Of a stretch of 64,000 bases of DNA, positions 10,566 through 19,401 are shown in pieces. Position 1 is the first letter of the stretch; the number at the start of each line of letters is the position of its first letter. The notes beneath the pieces were generated by a model. The model ran no database searches. It was given only the letters and a program-made list of their open reading frames with translations, and had not been told where the DNA came from. Both the position numbers and the translations under genes were made by a program. The stretch comes from Sphingosinicella sp. LHD-64 (GTDB lineage Bacteria > Pseudomonadota > Alphaproteobacteria > Sphingomonadales > Sphingomonadaceae), in NCBI RefSeq assembly GCF_031157375.1, contig NZ_JAVIFV010000004.1, positions 1 through 64,000 of the forward strand, in the 5' to 3' direction.

Positions 10566-10662
10566 GGCGACGGTCTAGACAAGGTTGCGGACTCCGCCAA
10601 TCGCCCGCCGCCGAACCAATCCCGTGCTGGTACATCCGTCACCCCGAATCCAGGCGTCCTCG

Positions 10663-10688
10663 CAAATAGGATTTGCCAAATAGGATTT
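10663..10688 (+). promoter_or_regulatory. Tandem direct repeat upstream of the Rhs operon
   Basis: CAAATAGGATTT occurs at 10663-10674 and again at 10677-10688 (period 14), 60-90 bases before the start of the first Rhs gene. It is AT-rich against a GC-rich background and could be a site for an activator bound as a dimer. No known motif is recognised. Confidence 0.4.
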
Positions 10689-10750
10689 CTGGTGTTCTCT
10701 ATTTGTTCCTCATCGCGACTCGCGTCGAGTCGTATCGCAGGAGGAGCAAG

Positions 10751-10966
10751 ATGACAGCACGAAGCAGATGGCTGGCCGCCGCCATGGCGGCCGCGCTGGC
10801 CGGGGCGGCCGCCTATGCCGCCGAGACGATCACCTACCGCTACGATGCGCGCGGCCGGCTGGTGAAGGTCGAGCATACCGGCTCGGTCAATCACAACGTC
10901 AACACGACCTATACCTACGACAAGGCCGACAACCGGACGAACCGGACGACGACCGGCGCCCCGTAG
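10751..10966 (+). CDS. Small secreted YD-repeat (RHS-repeat) protein
   Basis: 71 residues from the ATG at 10751, with GGAGGAG ending five bases upstream (10740-10746); the frame is open further 5' but without such a site. The Sec signal is clear (R, then AAAMAAALAGAAAYA, cleavage near residue 24). The mature ~47 residues hold one or two YD repeats (ITYRYDARGRLVKVEH, TYTYDKADNRTNRT). It lies 64 bases before the large Rhs gene and probably shares its transcript. The function is unknown: a free YD-repeat peptide might cap or help close the Rhs shell, but that is inference. Confidence 0.75.
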   Translation: MTARSRWLAAAMAAALAGAAAYAAETITYRYDARGRLVKVEHTGSVNHNVNTTYTYDKADNRTNRTTTGAP

Positions 10967-11030
10967 GCTTCGACGGAACGAACAGATCAAACGGGCGGCG
11001 CGGCGACGCCGCCTGAACAGGAGACACGAC

Positions 11031-14000
11031 ATGACACCCAACCTGCTTCGCGCGGGCGCCCTTGCCTGCGCGCTGATGACCAGCACGGCGCTGACCGCGC
11101 CGGCGCAGGCGCAAGGCCTGCCCTCGATCTACCAGCAGCCCGACGAGAACGGCGTCGACCTCACCGACGGGAGCTTCAACTTCGCCCTCGTCGAAGGCTC
11201 GATCGGCGCCGGGGAAGGCGCGATCGCGCTGACCCGCAGCTTCGGGTTCGGCGGCGAGCGCGACAACCTCTCGGTCCAGTTCCAGCGCAGCGTGTGGAGC
11301 GGCACCGCCACCCTCTCGCTGACCTTCGGCAACCGCACCGAAACCTTCACCGGCGCCTCGACGGCGACCAGCTTCGCCTCCGCGCAGGGCAACGGCGCGG
11401 TGCTGACCAAGGTCTCGGCGAGCGAATATACCTATACCGATGCCGACGGCACGGTGACTTACTACGCGCCCCCGCCGGGGCTCAGCAACGCCTCCAACCA
11501 GGGCTTCTGCGGCCCCGGCGCCGAGACGAGCTGCCGGCTGATCGCGACGCAGACCGTCCGCCCCAACGGCCACGCCACCTATTACGACTGGGACGTGCGC
11601 GAGACCTGCTGGATCAGCGACTACGACCCCAATGGCGAGCCGATCTATTCCTGCGTCCAGTACTGGCGCCAGCGCGGCCTCTCCAGCAGCTTCGGCTATC
11701 ATGTGAGCTTCGGCTTCCAGCAGGAAGCCGATCCCACGTCCGGCCTGCCGCCGCTCGCCTGGCACACCCGCGCCAGCGCGACATTCTCCAACACCGCCCT
11801 CCCGGGCGCGCCGACGCGCACGGTGACCTACGCCTATCCTTCCGCCTCTGTGACCGAGGTCACCACCGACGGCGGGCGGACCTGGCGGTTCAGCCGCGAC
11901 ACGCAGCAGCGCCTGACCGGCATCCGCCGGCCCGGCTCGGCGTCGGACGATATCACGATCGGCTATGCCGCCCCGACCTCGCTGGTGGTCAGCCAGATCA
12001 CCATCGATGGCGTCACCACCAGCTACAGCCGCTCGGTCAGCGGATCGACCGGCACGATCACCCGCACCAACGCGCTCAGCCAGACGCTGACCGCGGTGTC
12101 GAACCTCAATGTCGGCCGGCCGACCGCGATCACCGACGGGCTCGAGCGGACGACCTCGTTCAGCTACGACACGCAGGGACGGCTCAGCACCGTCACCCTC
12201 CCGGAGCTCAATGCGACCACCTACACCTATGACGGCCGCGGCAATGTCACGGCCACCTTGCGAAGCGCGAAGCTGGGCGCGCTGGCGCCGATCACGACGA
12301 GCGCGACCTTCCCGGCGACCTGCACCAACGTGGTGACCTGCAACCGGCCGACCTCGACGACGGACGCGCGCGGCAACGTCACCGACTATGCCTATGATGC
12401 CACCCATGGCGGCGTCACCAGCGTCACCCTGCCGGCGCCGGCGGGCGGGGCGGTGCGGCCGCAGACGCGCTATGCCTACACGCCGACCAACGGCGCGCAT
12501 CTGCTGACCCAGGTCTCGGCCTGCCAGACGCTGGCGAGCTGCACCGGCACCGCGGACGAGGTGCGCGCGAGCTTCGGCTACGACGCGAACGGCAACGTCA
12601 CCAGCACGTCGTCGGGCGCCGGCGACGGATCGCTGACTGCGACCAATACGATGACCTATGACGCCCACGGCAACCTCACCAGCGTCGACGGGCCGCTCGC
12701 CGGCAGCGCCGACACCAGCCGCCTGCGCTACAATGCGGCGCGCGAGGTGGTCGGCGCGATCGGGCCCGATCCCGACGGCGGCGGCGCGCTCAAACACCGC
12801 GCGGTGCGCACCACCTATGACGGCGCGGGCCGGGTGACCGCAGTGGAGCGCGGCACGGTCGCCAGCCAGTCCGACGGCGACTGGGCGGCGTTCACAAGCC
12901 TGGAACGGGTCGAGCAGGATTATGATCCCTATCACCGCCCTACGGTGCGCCGCCTGGTGGCGGGCGGCACGATCTATGCGCTGACCCAGACGGGCTATGA
13001 CGCGCTGGGCCGGCCCGACTGCGTGGCGGTGCGGATGGACCCGGCGGCGTTCGCCCCGCCGCTGCCGGCGGCGTGCGTTCCGGGCGCGCCGGGGGGCTTT
13101 GGCCCGGACCGGATCACCCGCACGACCTATGATGAGGCGGGGCAGGTGACTTTGGCCCAGACCGGCTACGGCACCGCCGACCAGGCCGACGAGGTGGCGA
13201 CCGGCTACGGGCCGAACGGGCAGGTCGAGACGGTGACGGACGGCAACGGCAACCGCACCACCTATGTCTGGGACGCGCACGACCGGCCGAGCCGGACGCG
13301 CATGCCTTCGCCGAGCGTGCCGGGGACGAGCTCGACCACCGACTATGAGGAGCTCGGCTACGATCCGGCCGGCAACGTCACCTCGCGGCGGCTCAGGGAC
13401 GGCACGAGCATCGCGTTCGGCTATGACGGTCTCGACCGGCTGATCTCGAAGGATCCGCCGGGAAGCGCGCCGACGGTGACCTACGGCTACGACCTGCTGG
13501 GCCGGATGACCGCGGCCGCGACCCCGGCCGATCCGTCGATGGGCCTGTCGTTCGGCTACGACGCGCTGGGACGCAACCTGACGCAGACCGGCCCGCTGGG
13601 GACGGTGAGCCACCAGTACGATCTTGCCGGCCGGCGCACGCAGCTGACCGGGCCGGACGGCTATGCGCTGGGCTATACGCATCTGGTGACCGGCGAGGTG
13701 GCGACGCTTCTCAACGGCGCCGGCCTCCCGTTTGCCAATCTAAGCCATGACGATCTCGGCCGGCGCACGCGGCTGCAGATGTACAACGGGACGGTGACGG
13801 CCTACGGCTACGATCCGGTGTCGCGGCTGGCGAGCCGGGCGCTGGACGTTCCGGGCAGCGCGGGCGATCTGGTGCTGGGGTTCGGCTACAACCCGGCGTC
13901 GCAGATCGTCGGCACGACCCGCTCCAACGATGCCTATGCCTATACGGCGCATGCCAATGCGAACGTGACCGACGTCGTGAACGGCCTGAACCAGATCGTC

Positions 14001-15170
14001 ACGACCGGCGCGACCGGGATCGGCCATGACGGGCGCGGCAATGTGAGCGCGATCGGGTCGGCGGGTTATGGCTATGACGGCGAGAACCGGCTGGTGTCGG
14101 CGCCGGGCGGGGTGACGCTGGTCTATGATCCGCTGGGGCGGCTCTACGAGGTGAGCGGTCCGTCGGGCACGCGGCGGCTGCTCCATGACGGGCACGATCT
14201 CATCGCCGAGTATGATGCCGGATCGCGGCTGGCGGCCTATGTCCATGGTCCCGGGGTGGACGAGCCGCTGCTGTGGTTCGACACGCCGGCGGGCACGCAC
14301 GGCACCTATCATGCCGACGAGCGCGGCAGCATCGTCGCGCTGCGCGACAATGCGGGCAATGCGATCGCCGCCAACGCGTACGACGACTATGGCCGTGCGC
14401 AGGGCGGGGGCCCGCTCGCCGGCCGGTTCGGCTATACCGGCCAGCCCTGGGTCCCCGAGATCGGGCTCTATTACTACCGGGCCCGGATGTACAATCCGGG
14501 GGTCGGCGGGCCGAGGTTCATGCAGACCGATCCGCTGGGATGGGCGGCAGGGCCCAACAACTACATCTACCCCACCGATCCCATCAACCGCACCGACCCA
14601 AGCGGATTATGCCCTATTGAGCCTTGCGAGGGGATCACTGTAACTGGAGGCATCTCAACCATCGGTGGCAACTGGACCGAATGGTTCCAGCGCGCCTCTT
14701 CCTTGGGAGGATATTATCAGGAAGACCTCGGCCTCTTGCAGGACACCGGCCAGGATGTGGGCGGCGGACAGTCGCCGCGCGATGGCTTTAGGTGTCTTCA
14801 GGGTGTTGTGGATTTCGGTGCGGCACTGAAGAGGTCGGCTGAAAATGCCAATACATTAGGTCAGGCTGCAGGCCTTGCCGCGGGTGTCGCAGCTCTGACG
14901 CCAGGTGGGCAGCCTGCTGCCCCGCCGCTGGCCGGCTTGGCAGGCATATCCCTTGGGGTTGGAGGGTTACTAGACATTCTTGGATCGACAATTATAGCCG
15001 TCGAAACAGGGAATTATGGCGGATATGCTTACGACGCTACAGCAGCGATTCTAGGGCAAGTTGTGGGAACCGGAAGCGCTGGGGCTGATGCAGCCAGTAG
15101 TCGGATAATCGATACAATGAATCGCACGGCTCAAGGGGATAACTCCAGCCCAAGATGTCCAGGACAGTAA
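11031..15170 (+). CDS. Secreted Rhs/YD-repeat polymorphic toxin with C-terminal tip
   Basis: 1379 residues. Sec signal peptide (residues 1-28, ...TSTALTAPAQAQG), an N-terminal domain of about 300 residues that packages strands, then many YD repeats (YDTQGRLSTV, YDGRGNVTA, YDAHGNLTS). The Rhs core (about residues 905-1185) ends in RFGYTGQPW, YYYRARMYNPGVG and the TDPSGL boundary. The tip (about 1190-1379) is glycine/alanine-rich with two hydrophobic segments (TLGQAAGLAAGVAAL and GISLGVGGLLDILGSTIIAV) and no recognisable enzyme motif, suggesting a membrane-acting toxin. There is no PAAR or T6SS feature, so export is probably Sec-dependent. It is followed one base later by a small two-helix membrane protein, the candidate immunity gene. 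Three displaced tip cassettes follow. Confidence 0.9.
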   Translation: MTPNLLRAGALACALMTSTALTAPAQAQGLPSIYQQPDENGVDLTDGSFNFALVEGSIGAGEGAIALTRSFGFGGERDNLSVQFQRSVWSGTATLSLTFGNRTETFTGASTATSFASAQGNGAVLTKVSASEYTYTDADGTVTYYAPPPGLSNASNQGFCGPGAETSCRLIATQTVRPNGHATYYDWDVRETCWISDYDPNGEPIYSCVQYWRQRGLSSSFGYHVSFGFQQEADPTSGLPPLAWHTRASATFSNTALPGAPTRTVTYAYPSASVTEVTTDGGRTWRFSRDTQQRLTGIRRPGSASDDITIGYAAPTSLVVSQITIDGVTTSYSRSVSGSTGTITRTNALSQTLTAVSNLNVGRPTAITDGLERTTSFSYDTQGRLSTVTLPELNATTYTYDGRGNVTATLRSAKLGALAPITTSATFPATCTNVVTCNRPTSTTDARGNVTDYAYDATHGGVTSVTLPAPAGGAVRPQTRYAYTPTNGAHLLTQVSACQTLASCTGTADEVRASFGYDANGNVTSTSSGAGDGSLTATNTMTYDAHGNLTSVDGPLAGSADTSRLRYNAAREVVGAIGPDPDGGGALKHRAVRTTYDGAGRVTAVERGTVASQSDGDWAAFTSLERVEQDYDPYHRPTVRRLVAGGTIYALTQTGYDALGRPDCVAVRMDPAAFAPPLPAACVPGAPGGFGPDRITRTTYDEAGQVTLAQTGYGTADQADEVATGYGPNGQVETVTDGNGNRTTYVWDAHDRPSRTRMPSPSVPGTSSTTDYEELGYDPAGNVTSRRLRDGTSIAFGYDGLDRLISKDPPGSAPTVTYGYDLLGRMTAAATPADPSMGLSFGYDALGRNLTQTGPLGTVSHQYDLAGRRTQLTGPDGYALGYTHLVTGEVATLLNGAGLPFANLSHDDLGRRTRLQMYNGTVTAYGYDPVSRLASRALDVPGSAGDLVLGFGYNPASQIVGTTRSNDAYAYTAHANANVTDVVNGLNQIVTTGATGIGHDGRGNVSAIGSAGYGYDGENRLVSAPGGVTLVYDPLGRLYEVSGPSGTRRLLHDGHDLIAEYDAGSRLAAYVHGPGVDEPLLWFDTPAGTHGTYHADERGSIVALRDNAGNAIAANAYDDYGRAQGGGPLAGRFGYTGQPWVPEIGLYYYRARMYNPGVGGPRFMQTDPLGWAAGPNNYIYPTDPINRTDPSGLCPIEPCEGITVTGGISTIGGNWTEWFQRASSLGGYYQEDLGLLQDTGQDVGGGQSPRDGFRCLQGVVDFGAALKRSAENANTLGQAAGLAAGVAALTPGGQPAAPPLAGLAGISLGVGGLLDILGSTIIAVETGNYGGYAYDATAAILGQVVGTGSAGADAASSRIIDTMNRTAQGDNSSPRCPGQ
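13744..14590 (+). repeat. Rhs core repeat, copy 1 (inside the full-length gene)
   Basis: The segment encoding HDDLGRRTRLQMYNG through the TDPSG boundary. It recurs as copy 2 (about 15420-16220), the diverged and truncated copy 3 (about 17400-17670) and copy 4 (about 18570-19195). Copies 1 and 4 look almost identical base for base over about 620 bases. Confidence 0.85.
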
Positions 15171-15171
15171 T

Positions 15172-15330
15172 ATGACGATGAATAACAATAATAGACCTAT
15201 AGCTGTAGCTATATGTGGAATAATATTGGCTGCTGCAGCCAGCCTGCATTTGATCGACTTATGGATTGGTTGGATCGCCGTGCTTCTTGCCATCGGCGTT
15301 TCGGTCATAGTTTGGAAGAAGTTGTCTTAG
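15172..15330 (+). CDS. Candidate immunity protein of the main Rhs tip (52 aa, two membrane helices)
   Basis: A 52-residue frame starts one base after the Rhs stop: MTMNNNNRPIAVAICGII..., ending ...VIVWKKLS. It holds two hydrophobic helices (about 9-25 and 31-48) and almost nothing else. Base composition is clearly AT-richer than the Rhs core, as is usual for tip/immunity pairs. Position directly after the tip and the membrane nature fit an inner-membrane immunity protein against a pore-forming or membrane-acting tip. No family is recognised. The hairpin at 15342-15366 follows its stop by 11 bases. Confidence 0.6.
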   Translation: MTMNNNNRPIAVAICGIILAAAASLHLIDLWIGWIAVLLAIGVSVIVWKKLS

Positions 15331-15331
15331 A

Positions 15332-16888
15332 ATGAGCTGGGGGAGCCGGCGCCTGTCGCCGGCTCCTTTGCAAAGCTATACGTGGGAGAACCGGCTCTAT
15401 GCCGGCCCCGGCGACTATGCGATCTACGATCCGGTGTCGCGGCTGGCGAGCCTGACCAGCGATTTTCCAGGCAGCGCGGGCGATCTGGCGCTGACGTTCG
15501 GCTACAACCCGGCCTCGCAGATCGTCGGCCGCACGGCCTCGAACGATGCGTACAGCTTCACCGGTCATGCCAATGCGAACGTGACCGACGTCGTGAACGG
15601 CCTGAACCAGATCGTCACGACCGGCGCGACCGGGATCGGCCATGACGGGCGCGGCAATGTGAGCGCGATCGGGTCGGCGGGTTATGGCTATGACGGCGAG
15701 AACCGGCTGGTGTCGGCGCCGGGCGGGGTGACGCTGGCCTACGATCCGCTGGGGCGGCTCTACGAGGTGAGCGGTCCGTCGGGCACGCGGCGGCTGCTCC
15801 ATGACGGGCACGATCTCATCGCCGAGTATGATGCCGGATCGCGGCTGGCGGCCTATGTCCATGGGCCCGGGGTGGACGAGCCGCTGCTGTGGTTCGACAC
15901 GCCGGCGGGCACGCACGGCACCTATCATGCCGACGAGCGCGGCTCGATCATCGCGCTGCGCGACAATGCGGGCAATGCGATCGCCGTCAACGGCTATGAC
16001 GACTATGGCCGTTCGCAAAGCGGCGGCGGCGGCCCGCTCGCCGGCCGGTTCGGCTATACCGGACAGCCCTGGGTCCCCGAGGTCGGCCTCTATTACTACC
16101 GGGCCAGGATGTACAATCCGGGGGTCGGCGGGCCACGGTTCATGCAGACCGACCCTGCCGGCTACCGCGACGGGCTGCACCTGTACAATTATGCGAGCGG
16201 CGATCCGGTGAACCTGATCGACCCGAGCGGCATGACCGCCTGCACCGGCTCGCGCATTGCCGATGCGTGCGAGAACGCCGATGGACAGGGCGGCGTCGCA
16301 GGCGGATATAGTGGCTACAGCTCGGCCGGATGGCGCGGCGACTACAGGAACGAGCAAGCGGGCGGCAACAGCGGCGACACTTCCACCGTCCCCGAACAGG
16401 TCATTAAACAAACGAGCGGCCAGCACATCACCTTTAGCGATGGGTCGACCAAGACTGTCGTCGAAGATGCGCGGCTGATATATCCGTCAATGGGTTTTGG
16501 AGTCGGGGACTTTGGCTTTTCCAGTGGAGGCGATGCTGAAGTCCAGCTAGCCTGTTGGGGCAGTCTGTCAGAGCGCTGTCGACAAGTTATTGGTACCGTT
16601 TTGAACCGCATTTTTCCCCCAGCTGCTGCTCCATATAAGGGGAGGAGGGTTCAAGAATTCGGCAGAGCAGTTGGCTTTGAGCAAGGTTTGGACCGAAGTA
16701 GAGCCGCATTGAATCGCCCTTTCGATGCACGTGCAGCCCTGCAACGTTTACAGGGAGGAGGATTCACTCGAGAGGAAACGGTGGCATGGCAAAGATTCTA
16801 TAGTGACCAGTTTTGGAGAGTTAACAGAAACAATATAAGCGCTTTCCATAGATCTGAGATCATACGTGAGATTCTGAGGATATGGTGA
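15332..16888 (+). CDS. Displaced Rhs tip cassette 2 (core fragment plus toxin tip)
   Basis: A 518-residue open frame. Its first 15 codons read through the boundary hairpin, and there is no good ribosome site, so the apparent ATG at 15332 may not be used; it is best seen as a silent, displaced Rhs end. From about residue 30 it is Rhs core (YDPVSRLASL ... RFGYTGQPW ... TDPAGY ... IDPSGM) and is almost identical to the main gene from 15569 on. The tip (from about 16230) is different and ends in a compact domain with ARAALQRLQGGGFTREETV, WQRFYSDQF and FHRSEIIREILRIW. That pattern reminds me of an uncharacterised tip family (possibly DUF4951), unconfirmed. A candidate immunity gene overlaps its stop. 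Confidence 0.75.
   Translation: MSWGSRRLSPAPLQSYTWENRLYAGPGDYAIYDPVSRLASLTSDFPGSAGDLALTFGYNPASQIVGRTASNDAYSFTGHANANVTDVVNGLNQIVTTGATGIGHDGRGNVSAIGSAGYGYDGENRLVSAPGGVTLAYDPLGRLYEVSGPSGTRRLLHDGHDLIAEYDAGSRLAAYVHGPGVDEPLLWFDTPAGTHGTYHADERGSIIALRDNAGNAIAVNGYDDYGRSQSGGGGPLAGRFGYTGQPWVPEVGLYYYRARMYNPGVGGPRFMQTDPAGYRDGLHLYNYASGDPVNLIDPSGMTACTGSRIADACENADGQGGVAGGYSGYSSAGWRGDYRNEQAGGNSGDTSTVPEQVIKQTSGQHITFSDGSTKTVVEDARLIYPSMGFGVGDFGFSSGGDAEVQLACWGSLSERCRQVIGTVLNRIFPPAAAPYKGRRVQEFGRAVGFEQGLDRSRAALNRPFDARAALQRLQGGGFTREETVAWQRFYSDQFWRVNRNNISAFHRSEIIREILRIW
15342..15366. repeat. Cassette-boundary hairpin 1
   Basis: GGAGCCGGCG, five bases (CCTGT), CGCCGGCTCC, then CTTTG-like sequence: a perfect 10-bp stem. 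It stands 11 bases after the first immunity gene. The same hairpin recurs at 17200, 18518 and 19278. The T-tract is short (TTT), so it is at best a modest terminator. Confidence 0.85.
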
Positions 16889-17154
16889 AAAATATGGAGA
16901 AAGAATTTTCAATAGAGATGATGAACTCATCTGATAATGACAAGAATATAATAATTGAACCTTGGGCAGAAGAATTCCTTCTGAGAGGAAGGCAATCATA
17001 TACGATAAATATCCACTCTGACCAAGATGGAGTACCATTGATATCGGTTAATGATGATCAAATTTCTGTTTATTTATGGTCTGGATGTACTTGTGATGTT
17101 ATCATTGATGGAAGAAGTGTATTAGATGGTATGATGAGGACGCCATCTCCTTAA
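16882..17154 (+). CDS. Candidate immunity protein of Rhs cassette 2
   Basis: 90 residues from 16882, or 86 from the ATG at 16894. Either start overlaps or nearly touches the tip's TGA (16886-16888), which is the usual tip/immunity coupling. The product is acidic and soluble (MEKEFSIEMMNSSDND, then a beta-rich stretch YTINIHSDQDGVPLISV, then YLWSGCTCDVIIDG). The DNA is strikingly AT-rich relative to the surrounding core. No family is recognised; assignment as immunity rests on position and composition. The boundary hairpin follows 46 bases after the stop. Confidence 0.55.
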   Translation: MVKNMEKEFSIEMMNSSDNDKNIIIEPWAEEFLLRGRQSYTINIHSDQDGVPLISVNDDQISVYLWSGCTCDVIIDGRSVLDGMMRTPSP

Positions 17155-17199
17155 TACGATTAGGGAATTAGAGCTATGGTTTCATTTTCCTAAATTTAA

Positions 17200-17224
17200 G
17201 GAGCCGGCGCGTATCGCCGGCTCC
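17200..17224. repeat. Cassette-boundary hairpin 2
   Basis: GGAGCCGGCG, CGTAT, CGCCGGCTCC. Here the stem extends to 12 bp with flanking AA/TT. It is followed by GCATCCGCACACTGTGCG, which recurs in near-identical form after hairpin 4, so the conserved boundary element is longer than the hairpin itself. Confidence 0.85.
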
Positions 17225-17331
17225 TTTGCATCCGCACACTGTGCGATAATCACATCCTCTCCAGTCACCTCGCCGGCCGGCTGACCCGGCTGACCCGGCC
17301 GGACGCGTTCTACGTCACCTACGATCACAAT

Positions 17332-18258
17332 GTGGCGGGCGACCTGACCGCGATCCGGGAGAACGGCGCGGCCTCGGGGATCGGGGTGCTGGCCACGTTC
17401 GGCCATGACGATCTGGGCCGGCGCACGAGCCTGGTCCGCGGCAACGGGACGGTGACGAGCTATGCTTATGATCCGGTGTCGCGGCTGGCGTCGCTGGGCC
17501 ACGACCTGCCGGGCGCGGGCTCGGACCTGACCCTGACGTTCGGCTACAATCCGGCCTCGCAGATCGCGAGCCGTACCGGCACCCATGGCGCCTATGCGTT
17601 CGCGTTCGCCAACCGGAACACAACCGACACGGTCAACGGGCTCAACCAGGTGGTGACCACCGGCGGTACCGGCGTCGTCCAGCCCTGCGACGGGATTACG
17701 ATCACCGCACCAAGGGGAGGTGGTGACTGGACCTACCTGTTCCAGCGAGGGAACTCTTTGGGAGGGTATTTCCAGGAGGATACCGGCGTCCTGAACGATG
17801 ACTGCGGAGGTTGGGGATGCGAGCCGATCGTCATTACCGCGAGGCGGTCGCAAAATGAGGAAAGCAGGCAGTGCCGGATTCTGCGCAACAACGCGGAAGC
17901 GAACTCACGTGTTCTGCCTCCTTATCTCACTGGAAATCGGAACTGGGGCAACCCCGGACTCTTGCGTGGATATGAAAATTACTATCAAAGCAATGCGGAC
18001 CAATGGAAGCCCCTGAATACCCGTACTGGTCAAAGTGTTTTGGTTCTTGCCGGATGGACATTCTCGAACTCGCCTTGGGGAAGAGCGGCATCAATACCAG
18101 TTCGCATTGGGTCTGTGAGCGGCCGGTTTGGAGCTGGAGAAATTGCGGGGACCGCCCTTGCTATAATTGCATCTGAGCAGTTGGCTCTCAATGAAAATAG
18201 GGCTCGCGCCCTTGATGCGCGGGCGGATTATCTAGAGGCGGGATGTCAAGGGAGGTGA
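17332..18258 (+). CDS. Displaced, internally deleted Rhs tip cassette 3
   Basis: 308 codons from a GTG with no clear ribosome site; the Rhs-like frame extends 5' to about 17260 (RLTRLTRPDAFYVTYDHN). The core fragment runs from FGHDDLGRRTSL to VNGLNQVVTTGGTG and then jumps directly to VQPCDGITITAPRGGGDW: the rest of the core, including the FGYTGQ and DPSG boundary, is missing. The linker after the jump is homologous to the linker of the main tip (both have PC-D/E-GIT[IV]T ... FQR..SLGGY[YF]QED), so a deletion joined core to linker. The last 130 residues are a distinct tip with a hydrophobic stretch (SVLVLAGWTF; GEIAGTALAIIAS). Probably not functional as a toxin. Confidence 0.7.
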   Translation: MAGDLTAIRENGAASGIGVLATFGHDDLGRRTSLVRGNGTVTSYAYDPVSRLASLGHDLPGAGSDLTLTFGYNPASQIASRTGTHGAYAFAFANRNTTDTVNGLNQVVTTGGTGVVQPCDGITITAPRGGGDWTYLFQRGNSLGGYFQEDTGVLNDDCGGWGCEPIVITARRSQNEESRQCRILRNNAEANSRVLPPYLTGNRNWGNPGLLRGYENYYQSNADQWKPLNTRTGQSVLVLAGWTFSNSPWGRAASIPVRIGSVSGRFGAGEIAGTALAIIASEQLALNENRARALDARADYLEAGCQGR

Positions 18259-18261
18259 TCT

Positions 18262-18477
18262 GTGAAAATTGTTGATAAAAAAAGCATAGTAGATAGCATA
18301 ATTGTATCTACTATTGTAGTAATACTTAGCTTTACAGTAAAAAAGCTCCTAGATGACTCCGATAGCGTGCGCTCCTATCTGATAAGTATAATTCGTGAAT
18401 TACATTGGATTGTAGCTATAGTGGTAATCTCCGTTTTGATTGTCTCTTTATTTAGAGGATGGATAAAGTTCAAATAG
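18262..18477 (+). CDS. Candidate immunity protein of Rhs cassette 3 (71 aa, two membrane helices)
   Basis: 71 residues from a GTG preceded by GGGAGGTGAT, an almost perfect Shine-Dalgarno sequence that makes this the best-supported start in the array. It has two hydrophobic helices (about 9-27 and 48-65) separated by a charged loop (KKLLDDSDSVRSYL), and the DNA is very AT-rich. It begins four bases after the tip stop. The fold type matches the 52-residue partner of the main tip, so both tips may act on membranes. It may still be translated even though its toxin is damaged, which would leave immunity to kin carrying the intact tip. Confidence 0.6.
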   Translation: MKIVDKKSIVDSIIVSTIVVILSFTVKKLLDDSDSVRSYLISIIRELHWIVAIVVISVLIVSLFRGWIKFK

Positions 18478-18510
18478 TTTTGAACTACGATGCCAGTTTA
18501 CTAAATTGAG

Positions 18511-19215
18511 TTGAGGGGGAGCCGGCGCGTGTCGCCGGCTCCTCGCGTTTGTGCTCCGACTGCCTCGTTCGGCCATGACGATCTGGGCCGTCGCACGCGG
18601 CTGCAGATGTACAACGGGACGGTGACGGCCTACGGCTACGATCCGGTGTCGCGGCTGGCGAGCCGGGCGCTGGACGTTCCGGGCAGCGCGGGCGATCTGG
18701 TGCTGGGGTTCGGCTACAACCCGGCGTCGCAGATCGTCGGCACGACCCGCTCCAACGATGCCTATGCCTATACGGCGCATGCCAATGCGAACGTGACCGA
18801 CGTCGTGAACGGCCTGAACCAGATCGTCGCGACCGGCGCGACCGGGATCGGCCATGACGGGCGCGGCAATGTGAGCGCGATCGGGTCGGCGGGCTATGGC
18901 TATGACGGCGAGAACCGGCTGGTGTCGGCGCCGGGCGGGGTGACGCTGGTCTATGATCCGCTGGGGCGGCTCTACGAGGTGAGCGGTCCGTCGGGCGTGC
19001 GGCGGCTGCTCCATGACGGGCACGATCTCATCGCCGAGTATGATGCCGGATCGCGGCTGGCGGCCTATGTCCATGGTCCCGGGGTGGACGAGCCGCTGCT
19101 GTGGTTCGACACGCCGGCGGGCACGCACGGCACCTATCATGCCGACGAGCGCGGCAGCATCGTCGCGCTGCGCGACAATGCGGGCAATGCGATCGTCCAC
19201 AATGCGCACCCTTAA
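18511..19215 (+). pseudogene. Rhs core remnant, cassette 4 (no tip)
   Basis: The open frame from 18511 reads through the boundary hairpin, and real Rhs homology starts at SFGHDDLGRRTRLQ (about 18568). It is nearly identical to the main gene to NAGNAI (about 19192), then stops after VHNAHP without the FGYTGQ motif, the DPSG boundary, a tip or an immunity gene. No ribosome site is visible. It appears to be a truncated cassette that can only serve as a recombination donor or substrate. Confidence 0.7.
18518..18542. repeat. Cassette-boundary hairpin 3
   Basis: GGAGCCGGCG, CGTGT, CGCCGGCTCC, 40 bases after the 71-residue candidate immunity gene. It is followed by CTCGCG rather than a T-run. Confidence 0.85.
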
Positions 19216-19277
19216 CCGCGAGGGATTACGGTGACGGGATTAGGGTGACAGTGCACTGAATTATGCACTAAATTGGG
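19216..19277. other. AT-richer remnant with internal short repeats after the last Rhs fragment
   Basis: This stretch holds two GGTGAC-type and two TGCACT-type words (GGTGACGGGATTAGGGTGAC, then TGCACTGAATTATGCACT). It has no coding potential. The pattern recalls sequence near small palindromic mobile units served by Y1 (REP-associated) transposases, but no transposase is present; the source is unproven. Confidence 0.3.
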
Positions 19278-19302
19278 GGAGCCGGCGCGTGTCGCCGGCT
19301 CC
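19278..19302. repeat. Cassette-boundary hairpin 4
   Basis: GGAGCCGGCG, CGTGT, CGCCGGCTCC, followed by TTCGCATCCGTACATTGTGCG. The tail matches that after hairpin 2. This marks the right end of the Rhs array; nadK follows. Confidence 0.85.
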
Positions 19303-19401
19303 TTCGCATCCGTACATTGTGCGCCGGCCGCACCCTCCAACCACGCCAACCCCAGCTACCGCACCCCGCACCCCGCATGGCGACCGCTCCGCGCCACATC
19401 C

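Follow-up and report, generated by a model that had tools for sequence, protein, structure and literature searches.

A probable Rhs tip-displacement island in Sphingosinicella sp. LHD-64, with TonB-box-like motifs in tip linkers

The first 64,000 nucleotides of contig NZ_JAVIFV010000004.1 of Sphingosinicella sp. LHD-64 (G000:C4:1-64000; the whole stretch is hereafter called the window), from a genome of 3.89 Mb, contain an array of Rhs sequences. In all probability, this locus is an inserted island carrying a Sec-exported Rhs polymorphic-toxin gene and displaced toxin tips, in which a repeated hairpin represents the ancestral 3' end of the units and for which delivery of the tips by way of TonB may be envisaged. 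The array itself is of a known type, one that Rhs C-terminal displacement ordinarily produces. What looks new, judging from the sequences, is that a TonB-box-like motif is frequent in the linkers at the start of the tips. Somewhat more speculatively, and with a likelihood that we put just short of even, the Sec-exported Rhs proteins of this TonB-receptor-rich family may release their tips in the manner of small TonB-dependent bacteriocins, each consisting of a linker with a TonB box and an exchangeable toxin domain.

An Rhs gene followed by displaced units

Genome search and self-comparison confirmed what an earlier note on this DNA had described: a full Rhs gene with its tip and a candidate immunity gene, followed by three displaced units (Table 1). 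Family scans found YD/RHS repeats and the Rhs-associated core (Rhs_assc_core) in the main protein, as expected of an Rhs polymorphic toxin. It also matches solved Rhs chains by sequence; its structure model is of low confidence (pLDDT 59, pTM 0.39), with Rhs chains as top fold matches (E 1.8e-37), and the titles of the structure entries matched by the model name self-cleavage of the tip. Its best named plasmid relatives are from Asticcacaulis (34.7% identity) and Sphingomonas (39.3%). The core end carries two DPxG motifs separated by 18 residues in the main gene and by 19 in unit 2; this DPxG-x~18-DPxG arrangement we take to be the Rhs autocleavage motif, which releases the tip.

Downstream core fragments bear unrelated tips, the arrangement that defines a C-terminal displacement array. 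In a DNA search of the genome in which 40 of 185 candidates were scored, core copies were reported only at this locus, in the main gene (13700-14630) and the three units, and a family search of the genome placed Rhs core ends above cut-off in the window only. The core fragments had been described as nearly identical to the main gene. This is true of unit 2 (15424-16155; 92% in the DNA search and 93% over 731 columns in the self-comparison) and of unit 4 (18572-19209; 98%, and 99% over 624 nt), but not of unit 3 (17402-17681; 72% and 74%), whose diverged core ends before the Rhs end motif and is directly followed by tip 3, with a linker similar, by eye, to that of tip 1. Unit 4 indeed has no tip; its sequence stops within the core, however, and the core end is missing as well.

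The core of unit 2 is a mosaic: 121 of 150 positions are identical to the main gene at 13819-13968 and then 526 of 544 at 13969-14512, the first 150 of which show no difference whatsoever. Its frame is open through a complete core end and tip, and a small gene adjoins it. The end of tip 2 resembles DUF4951 (E 1.8e-5, below the Pfam cut-off), and a search for relatives that was made for tip 2, and not for tips 1 and 3, found none in plasmids or in 245 other genomes of the order. Since the core of unit 3 is cut and diverged, unit 4 is tipless, and unit 2 is a mosaic, only unit 2 places a complete tip on long near-identical DNA. The suggestion that a crossover could swap the expressed tip thus stands for unit 2, where the homology is long enough, but no other unit has a complete tip on such DNA. 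The truncated core of unit 3 and the tipless unit 4 could also mean that the array is decaying debris without present use, in which no tips are swapped. We find this somewhat doubtful in view of unit 2, with its open frame, its adjoining small gene, and a core that has recently been made similar to that of the main gene.

The array occupies an insertion of about 8.8 kb between two genes that are adjacent in the stretches from 11 of 12 relatives; in the twelfth, the right-hand flanking gene alone was matched. These stretches span 1.6-13 kb, some being short or partly matched (L068, L072), and none of the 12 contains an rhs match at E 1e-5. We set the edges of the island by eye, by alignment to the shorter spacers of the relatives. 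By our reading, the left flanking gene is of the EAL type and the right one is NAD-kinase-like.

The boundary hairpin

The same 25-nt hairpin, GGAGCCGGCG-N5-CGCCGGCTCC, is found without a single mismatch at 15342, 17200, 18518, and 19278, 11 to 62 nt past the preceding stop codon, with folding energies of -25.4 to -27.6 kcal/mol (z -3.3 to -5.5). The earlier picture of cassettes flanked by hairpins holds for the 3' ends, as all four units have one there, but none precedes the main gene. Nor are hairpins scattered genome-wide: the four perfect copies in the genome all lie at this locus, and the sole further match at up to 3 mismatches, on contig C3, has 3 mismatches. In the window, 0.01 matches with up to 3 mismatches are expected by chance. 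Hairpins 2 and 4 have a 56-nt block in common (87.5%), and the shared flank ends 6 nt past hairpin 1 and 1 nt past hairpin 3.

One hairpin at each unit end, a pattern seen in this array only, is what one would expect if the hairpin were a site-specific recombination site at which a recombinase moved the units as cassettes, as in an integron. On evidence that did not include a search for integrases, we consider this very improbable. None of 16 other genus loci scanned contains a shared hairpin of this kind, 22 of 26 arrays have no boundary repeat, and the flanks are cut at differing points rather than at one site; moreover, ordinary recombination suffices, because the core homology is long.

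We favour a reading in which the hairpin, peculiar to this lineage, is the original 3' terminus of a unit. With up to 2 mismatches it is present in 8 of 397 family genomes including this one, the other seven having one copy each (comparison genomes were taken one per species). Boundary repeats of at least 16 nt common to units of an array were found in 4 of 26 arrays, this one included, in a survey that omitted L034, a locus that also has displaced fragments. The hairpin punctuation, which had seemed unusual, is therefore peculiar to the lineage, but boundary repeats as such occur in three further arrays. L075 has four exactly repeated blocks of 20-43 nt, lying within about 225 bp, that are found both behind its first unit and behind the whole array. 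Such a pattern is expected if displacement copies the 3' flank, and we accordingly regard the hairpin as the version of that flank found in this lineage.

That the hairpin might mark cassettes throughout the family was considered and rejected on the basis of the genome count, the other loci scanned, and the array survey. One of the seven single copies in other family genomes, with 2 mismatches, belongs to another genus of the family (G205) and lies at C9:330840, about 7 kb from an Rhs core, and at L042:4757-4798 (13204-13245 of the reversed locus) a perfect 42-nt hairpin with 19-bp arms lies past a displaced Rhs core.

Displacement in the family and at a second site

Counting the present genome, an Rhs gene of this type was found at E 1e-30 in 12 of 26 genus genomes, and a core match at 1e-10 in 68 of 298 family genomes. 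Among the matches listed, approximately 21 of 63 genomes tabulated have tandem cores on the same strand 0.3-4 kb apart, a tally that omitted several small core fragments. Displaced cores elsewhere begin at varied 5' points and often reach the core end. When 79 tips were compared, two pairs of related toxin domains (34% and 40% identity) had one member expressed and the other displaced, in different genomes, and one pair occupied both positions of a single array. A general search for related loci returned only four distant ones. The array thus exemplifies a displacement that is common in the family.

L082 (G254:C4) and L085 (G048:C1) are long Rhs arrays in which roughly four to seven core fragments have been displaced; some unit boundaries of L085 share repeats of up to 73 nt. 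On another contig of the present genome (L061, G000:C2; about C2:9625-12121, minus strand), two orphan Rhs tips whose partner genes differ stand in tandem; they share a repeat of 496 bp at 99.6%, which takes in the 3' portion of a transglutaminase-like gene, a short Rhs core end, and the linker. The gene preceding these tips matches Transglut_core2 (3.4e-11) and is SirB1-like by our reading; one of the partner genes matches DUF6968 (1.8e-22).

Taken together, the confinement of hairpins and cores to the locus, the 56-nt block cut short after hairpins 1 and 3, the mosaic of unit 2, the empty site, the tandem cores elsewhere, and the pair on C2 support displacement.

A TonB-box-like motif in tip linkers

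The 5-mer [ILV][VIT][VI]T[AG] is strongly enriched near the start of the tips. It occurs 24 times in 19 of the 77 tips of a first set (shuffles: mean 0.78, most 5 in 500) and 13 times in 11 of the 64 tips of a second (mean 0.65, most 4 in 1000), and 36 of these 37 occurrences fall within the first 90 tip residues, those of the first set ranging from 3 to 86 residues after the core end. Rhs shells and cores contain 9 per 48,717 residues, and other window frames of at least 250 codons, some of which may be non-genes, 1 per 39,183. The 5-mer was chosen after the tips had been viewed; the second tip set, in which 6 of 72 tip stretches gave no junction, and a profile trained on receptors were made in answer to this.

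The genome has 59 matches to the plug domain of TonB receptors, and in 27 of 30 inspected the 5-mer stands just before Plug. We trained the profile on 30 receptor boxes of this genome (29 distinct), found with a slightly wider expression. It reached at least 10 bits in 22 of 142 tip linkers versus 13 of 2840 shuffles. Shuffles do not model strand-rich sequence, and real-sequence controls were therefore added: the same score was reached by 1 of the 128 later tip parts, by none of the 503 shell or core pieces, and by 3 of the 390 other pieces, these last including frames that may be non-genes. This test reused all 142 tips; the totals vary by script (77 + 64 = 141 versus 142), and tip 3, which has no core end, was left uncounted and scored separately. 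In this genome, the C2 tips score 23.3 and 15.0 bits and tip 3 scores 21.7 bits; the C2 linkers contain DPIVVTASV, EEIVVTGVRV, and GEIVITAVRP. A second receptor-like form, G[ST][RH][IV], occurs in 17 of 141 tips including tip 2 (shuffle mean 1.16). A subset of the tips thus matches a TonB box in sequence, and the linkers appear flexible, as judged from their glycine-rich sequence alone. According to the accessible text of PMC6874591, the V and T of IIVT matter in a Sphingobium receptor, in which a double alanine mutant has the phenotype of the deletion.

Several of the matches are weak, and the spread of positions in the first set is wide, which would suit a linker with some other role or a hydrophobic strand needed inside the Rhs cocoon. 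It is nevertheless rather unlikely that the motif is not a TonB box, as the matching profile was built solely from receptors of this genome. The linkers, moreover, form 115 clusters, of which 28 contain the 5-mer, so that it does not stem from one inherited linker, and the motif is tied to one core class (34 of 81 versus 4 of 46 tips, Fisher p 5e-5, with the two classes drawn after the tips had been seen; of 15 unclassified tips, 6 have it).

Another possibility is that the motif serves not import into the target but export of Rhs or its display on the cell surface, by engaging TonB of the producer. The Sec signals imply that the same proteins cross the producer's periplasm, where TonB acts. 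This is, however, quite improbable: the motif is located in the variable tip and not in the constant shell, as the profile result for shell and core pieces illustrates, and the TonB boxes of toxins act in uptake in the available text of PMC9040868.

Export and partner genes

The Sec signal of the Rhs protein had been thought unusual, which was not borne out, since by our reading all other Rhs genes inspected at family loci have one (18 of 18 and 11 of 11). Of two named plasmid Rhs proteins, one has a Sec signal and one lacks it from the annotated start. VipB, the sheath protein of the type VI secretion system (T6SS) and the sole T6SS gene tested, had no match in the genome, with a positive E. 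coli control, and a Pfam scan found no PAAR domain. The VipB search and the Pfam scan give no sign of a T6SS Rhs effector.

Candidate immunity genes were called from adjacency, size, and hydrophobicity. By simple rules, 87 of 134 tip partner genes are of the envelope type, versus 11 of 62 after other long frames, a control in which some frames may be non-genes. This fits toxins acting in the envelope, independently of the motif. Envelope-type partners as a mark specific to TonB-box tips were rejected, as they do not differ between core classes (Fisher p 1.0).

Proposed course of displacement and delivery

We propose that incoming DNA with a homologous core, a new tip, an immunity gene, and a 3' hairpin would recombine at the core, shifting older units downstream. 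Each unit would keep its hairpin because the tip/immunity transcript is taken to have originally ended there, with breakpoints a few to tens of bases past the hairpin. Displaced tips, lacking a signal peptide, would be silent unless recombination linked one to the main core, while their immunity genes may remain useful. The Rhs protein would be exported via Sec and its tip freed by cleavage at the core end. The freed tip would begin with a flexible linker, in many cases bearing a TonB box, by which TonB of the target cell could draw it across the outer membrane into the periplasm, as with TonB-dependent bacteriocins. The enrichment of the 5-mer in two tip sets, the receptor profile, the position in the linker, the 5-mer preceding Plug, the missing VipB match, and the envelope-type partners support the TonB step.

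Several observations weigh against this proposal. Unit 4, the oldest by position, is the closest to the main core, and a simple ageing series predicts otherwise. The hairpins have a weak, not clearly defined T-run and were not listed by a terminator scan. The expressed tip 1 scores 6.1 bits and tip 2 fails at -1.3, and the share of tips with the motif ranges from 22 of 142 with the profile to 44 of 141 with either regular expression. Two named alphaproteobacterial plasmid Rhs proteins have no 5-mer in their linkers, and the tips of three loci outside the family lack a stricter motif. Envelope-type partners are equally common in the motif-poor core class and so do not single out TonB uptake.

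If the proposal is correct, an exchange of Rhs tips would exchange the import signal too. A TonB box in the tips would offer a concrete import route for Sec-exported Rhs toxins of Gram-negative bacteria that lack a T6SS, and would connect Rhs toxins to TonB-dependent bacteriocins. In the open-access literature available to us in part, we found no description of Rhs tips bearing TonB boxes.

Relation to known systems

The following comparisons refer to the accessible portions of the papers cited. The locus resembles enterobacterial displacement arrays, which consist of an intact rhs gene and core fragments of variable length with other tips, and whose displacement Jackson (2009; PMC2935791) modelled as homologous recombination via a circle. 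It differs in its Sec-exported Rhs and in the same hairpin at every unit end; the terms terminator, palindrom, and inverted repeat have no occurrence in the main text of that paper. In Salmonella LT2, an orphan rhs-CT tip and immunity gene behind the main gene share a similar length of core homology, and 522 bp at 95% recombined (Koskiniemi 2014; PMC3967940). Recombination and killing were shown there, whereas the present case is argued from sequence, in a genome without a VipB match. Ordered orphan toxin/immunity modules after a main gene are also known from cdiA-CT/cdiI arrays, although there the carrier is CdiA (Poole 2011; PMC3150448). In pyocins G, S2, and S5 and in bacteriocins of the ColM type, the toxin domain is preceded by an unstructured N-terminal part that contains a TonB box (PMC9040868, PMC5821083), an arrangement that a subset of the tips resembles in sequence; unlike these proteins, the tips are expected to be cleaved from an Rhs cocoon, their uptake is putative, and no receptor-binding domain was identified in them.

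Features of the island

Table 1. Coordinates of the island and its features in the window
Feature	Position	Strand	Basis or remark
Whole inserted island	10636..19401	.	edges approximate, by eye against empty site
Gene for 71-aa secreted YD-repeat protein	10751..10966	+	tblastn conservation upstream of rhs; inside island
Main Rhs gene, 1379 aa	11031..15170	+	PF05593 7.7e-41, TIGR03696 2.3e-16
Sec signal peptide, ...TAPAQA/QG	11031..11111	+	sequence, by eye; same type in relatives
Rhs-associated core end with DPxG-x18-DPxG	14379..14609	+	TIGR03696, motif
Tip 1 (expressed)	14607..15167	+	directly after core end
ITVTG in EGITVTGG, tip 1, weakly TonB-box-like	14634..14648	+	6.1 bits
Candidate immunity gene 1, 52 aa, two hydrophobic segments	15172..15330	+	sequence, tip-partner survey
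Unit 2 frame: displaced core fragment (homology from about 15420) and tip 2	15332..16888	+
Hairpin 1	15342..15366	+	pattern search, folding
TGSRI in tip 2 linker, receptor-like form	16244..16258	+	undetected by profile
Candidate immunity gene 2, 90 aa, soluble	16882..17154	+
Hairpin 2	17198..17226	+	followed by 21 nt of 3' flank common to hairpin 4
Unit 3 frame: truncated, diverged core fragment and tip 3	17332..18258	+
ITITA in CDGITITAPR, tip 3	17695..17709	+
IVITA in EPIVITARRSQ, tip 3, TonB-box-like	17827..17841	+	21.7 bits
Candidate immunity gene 3, 71 aa, hydrophobic by eye	18262..18477	+
Unit 4 frame: core fragment, no core end, no tip	18511..19215	+
Hairpin 3	18518..18542	+	pattern search, folding
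Hairpin 4, last before island edge	19278..19302	+	pattern search

The small YD-repeat gene precedes rhs in all eight genus loci whose rhs matches from residues 1-7 (L030-L037), its tblastn match ending 65-245 bp upstream of the rhs match. Upstream of this gene, the window contains at 10670-10700 two near-copies of an AT-rich AAATAGGATTTGCC-like repeat, which possibly belong to a promoter region.

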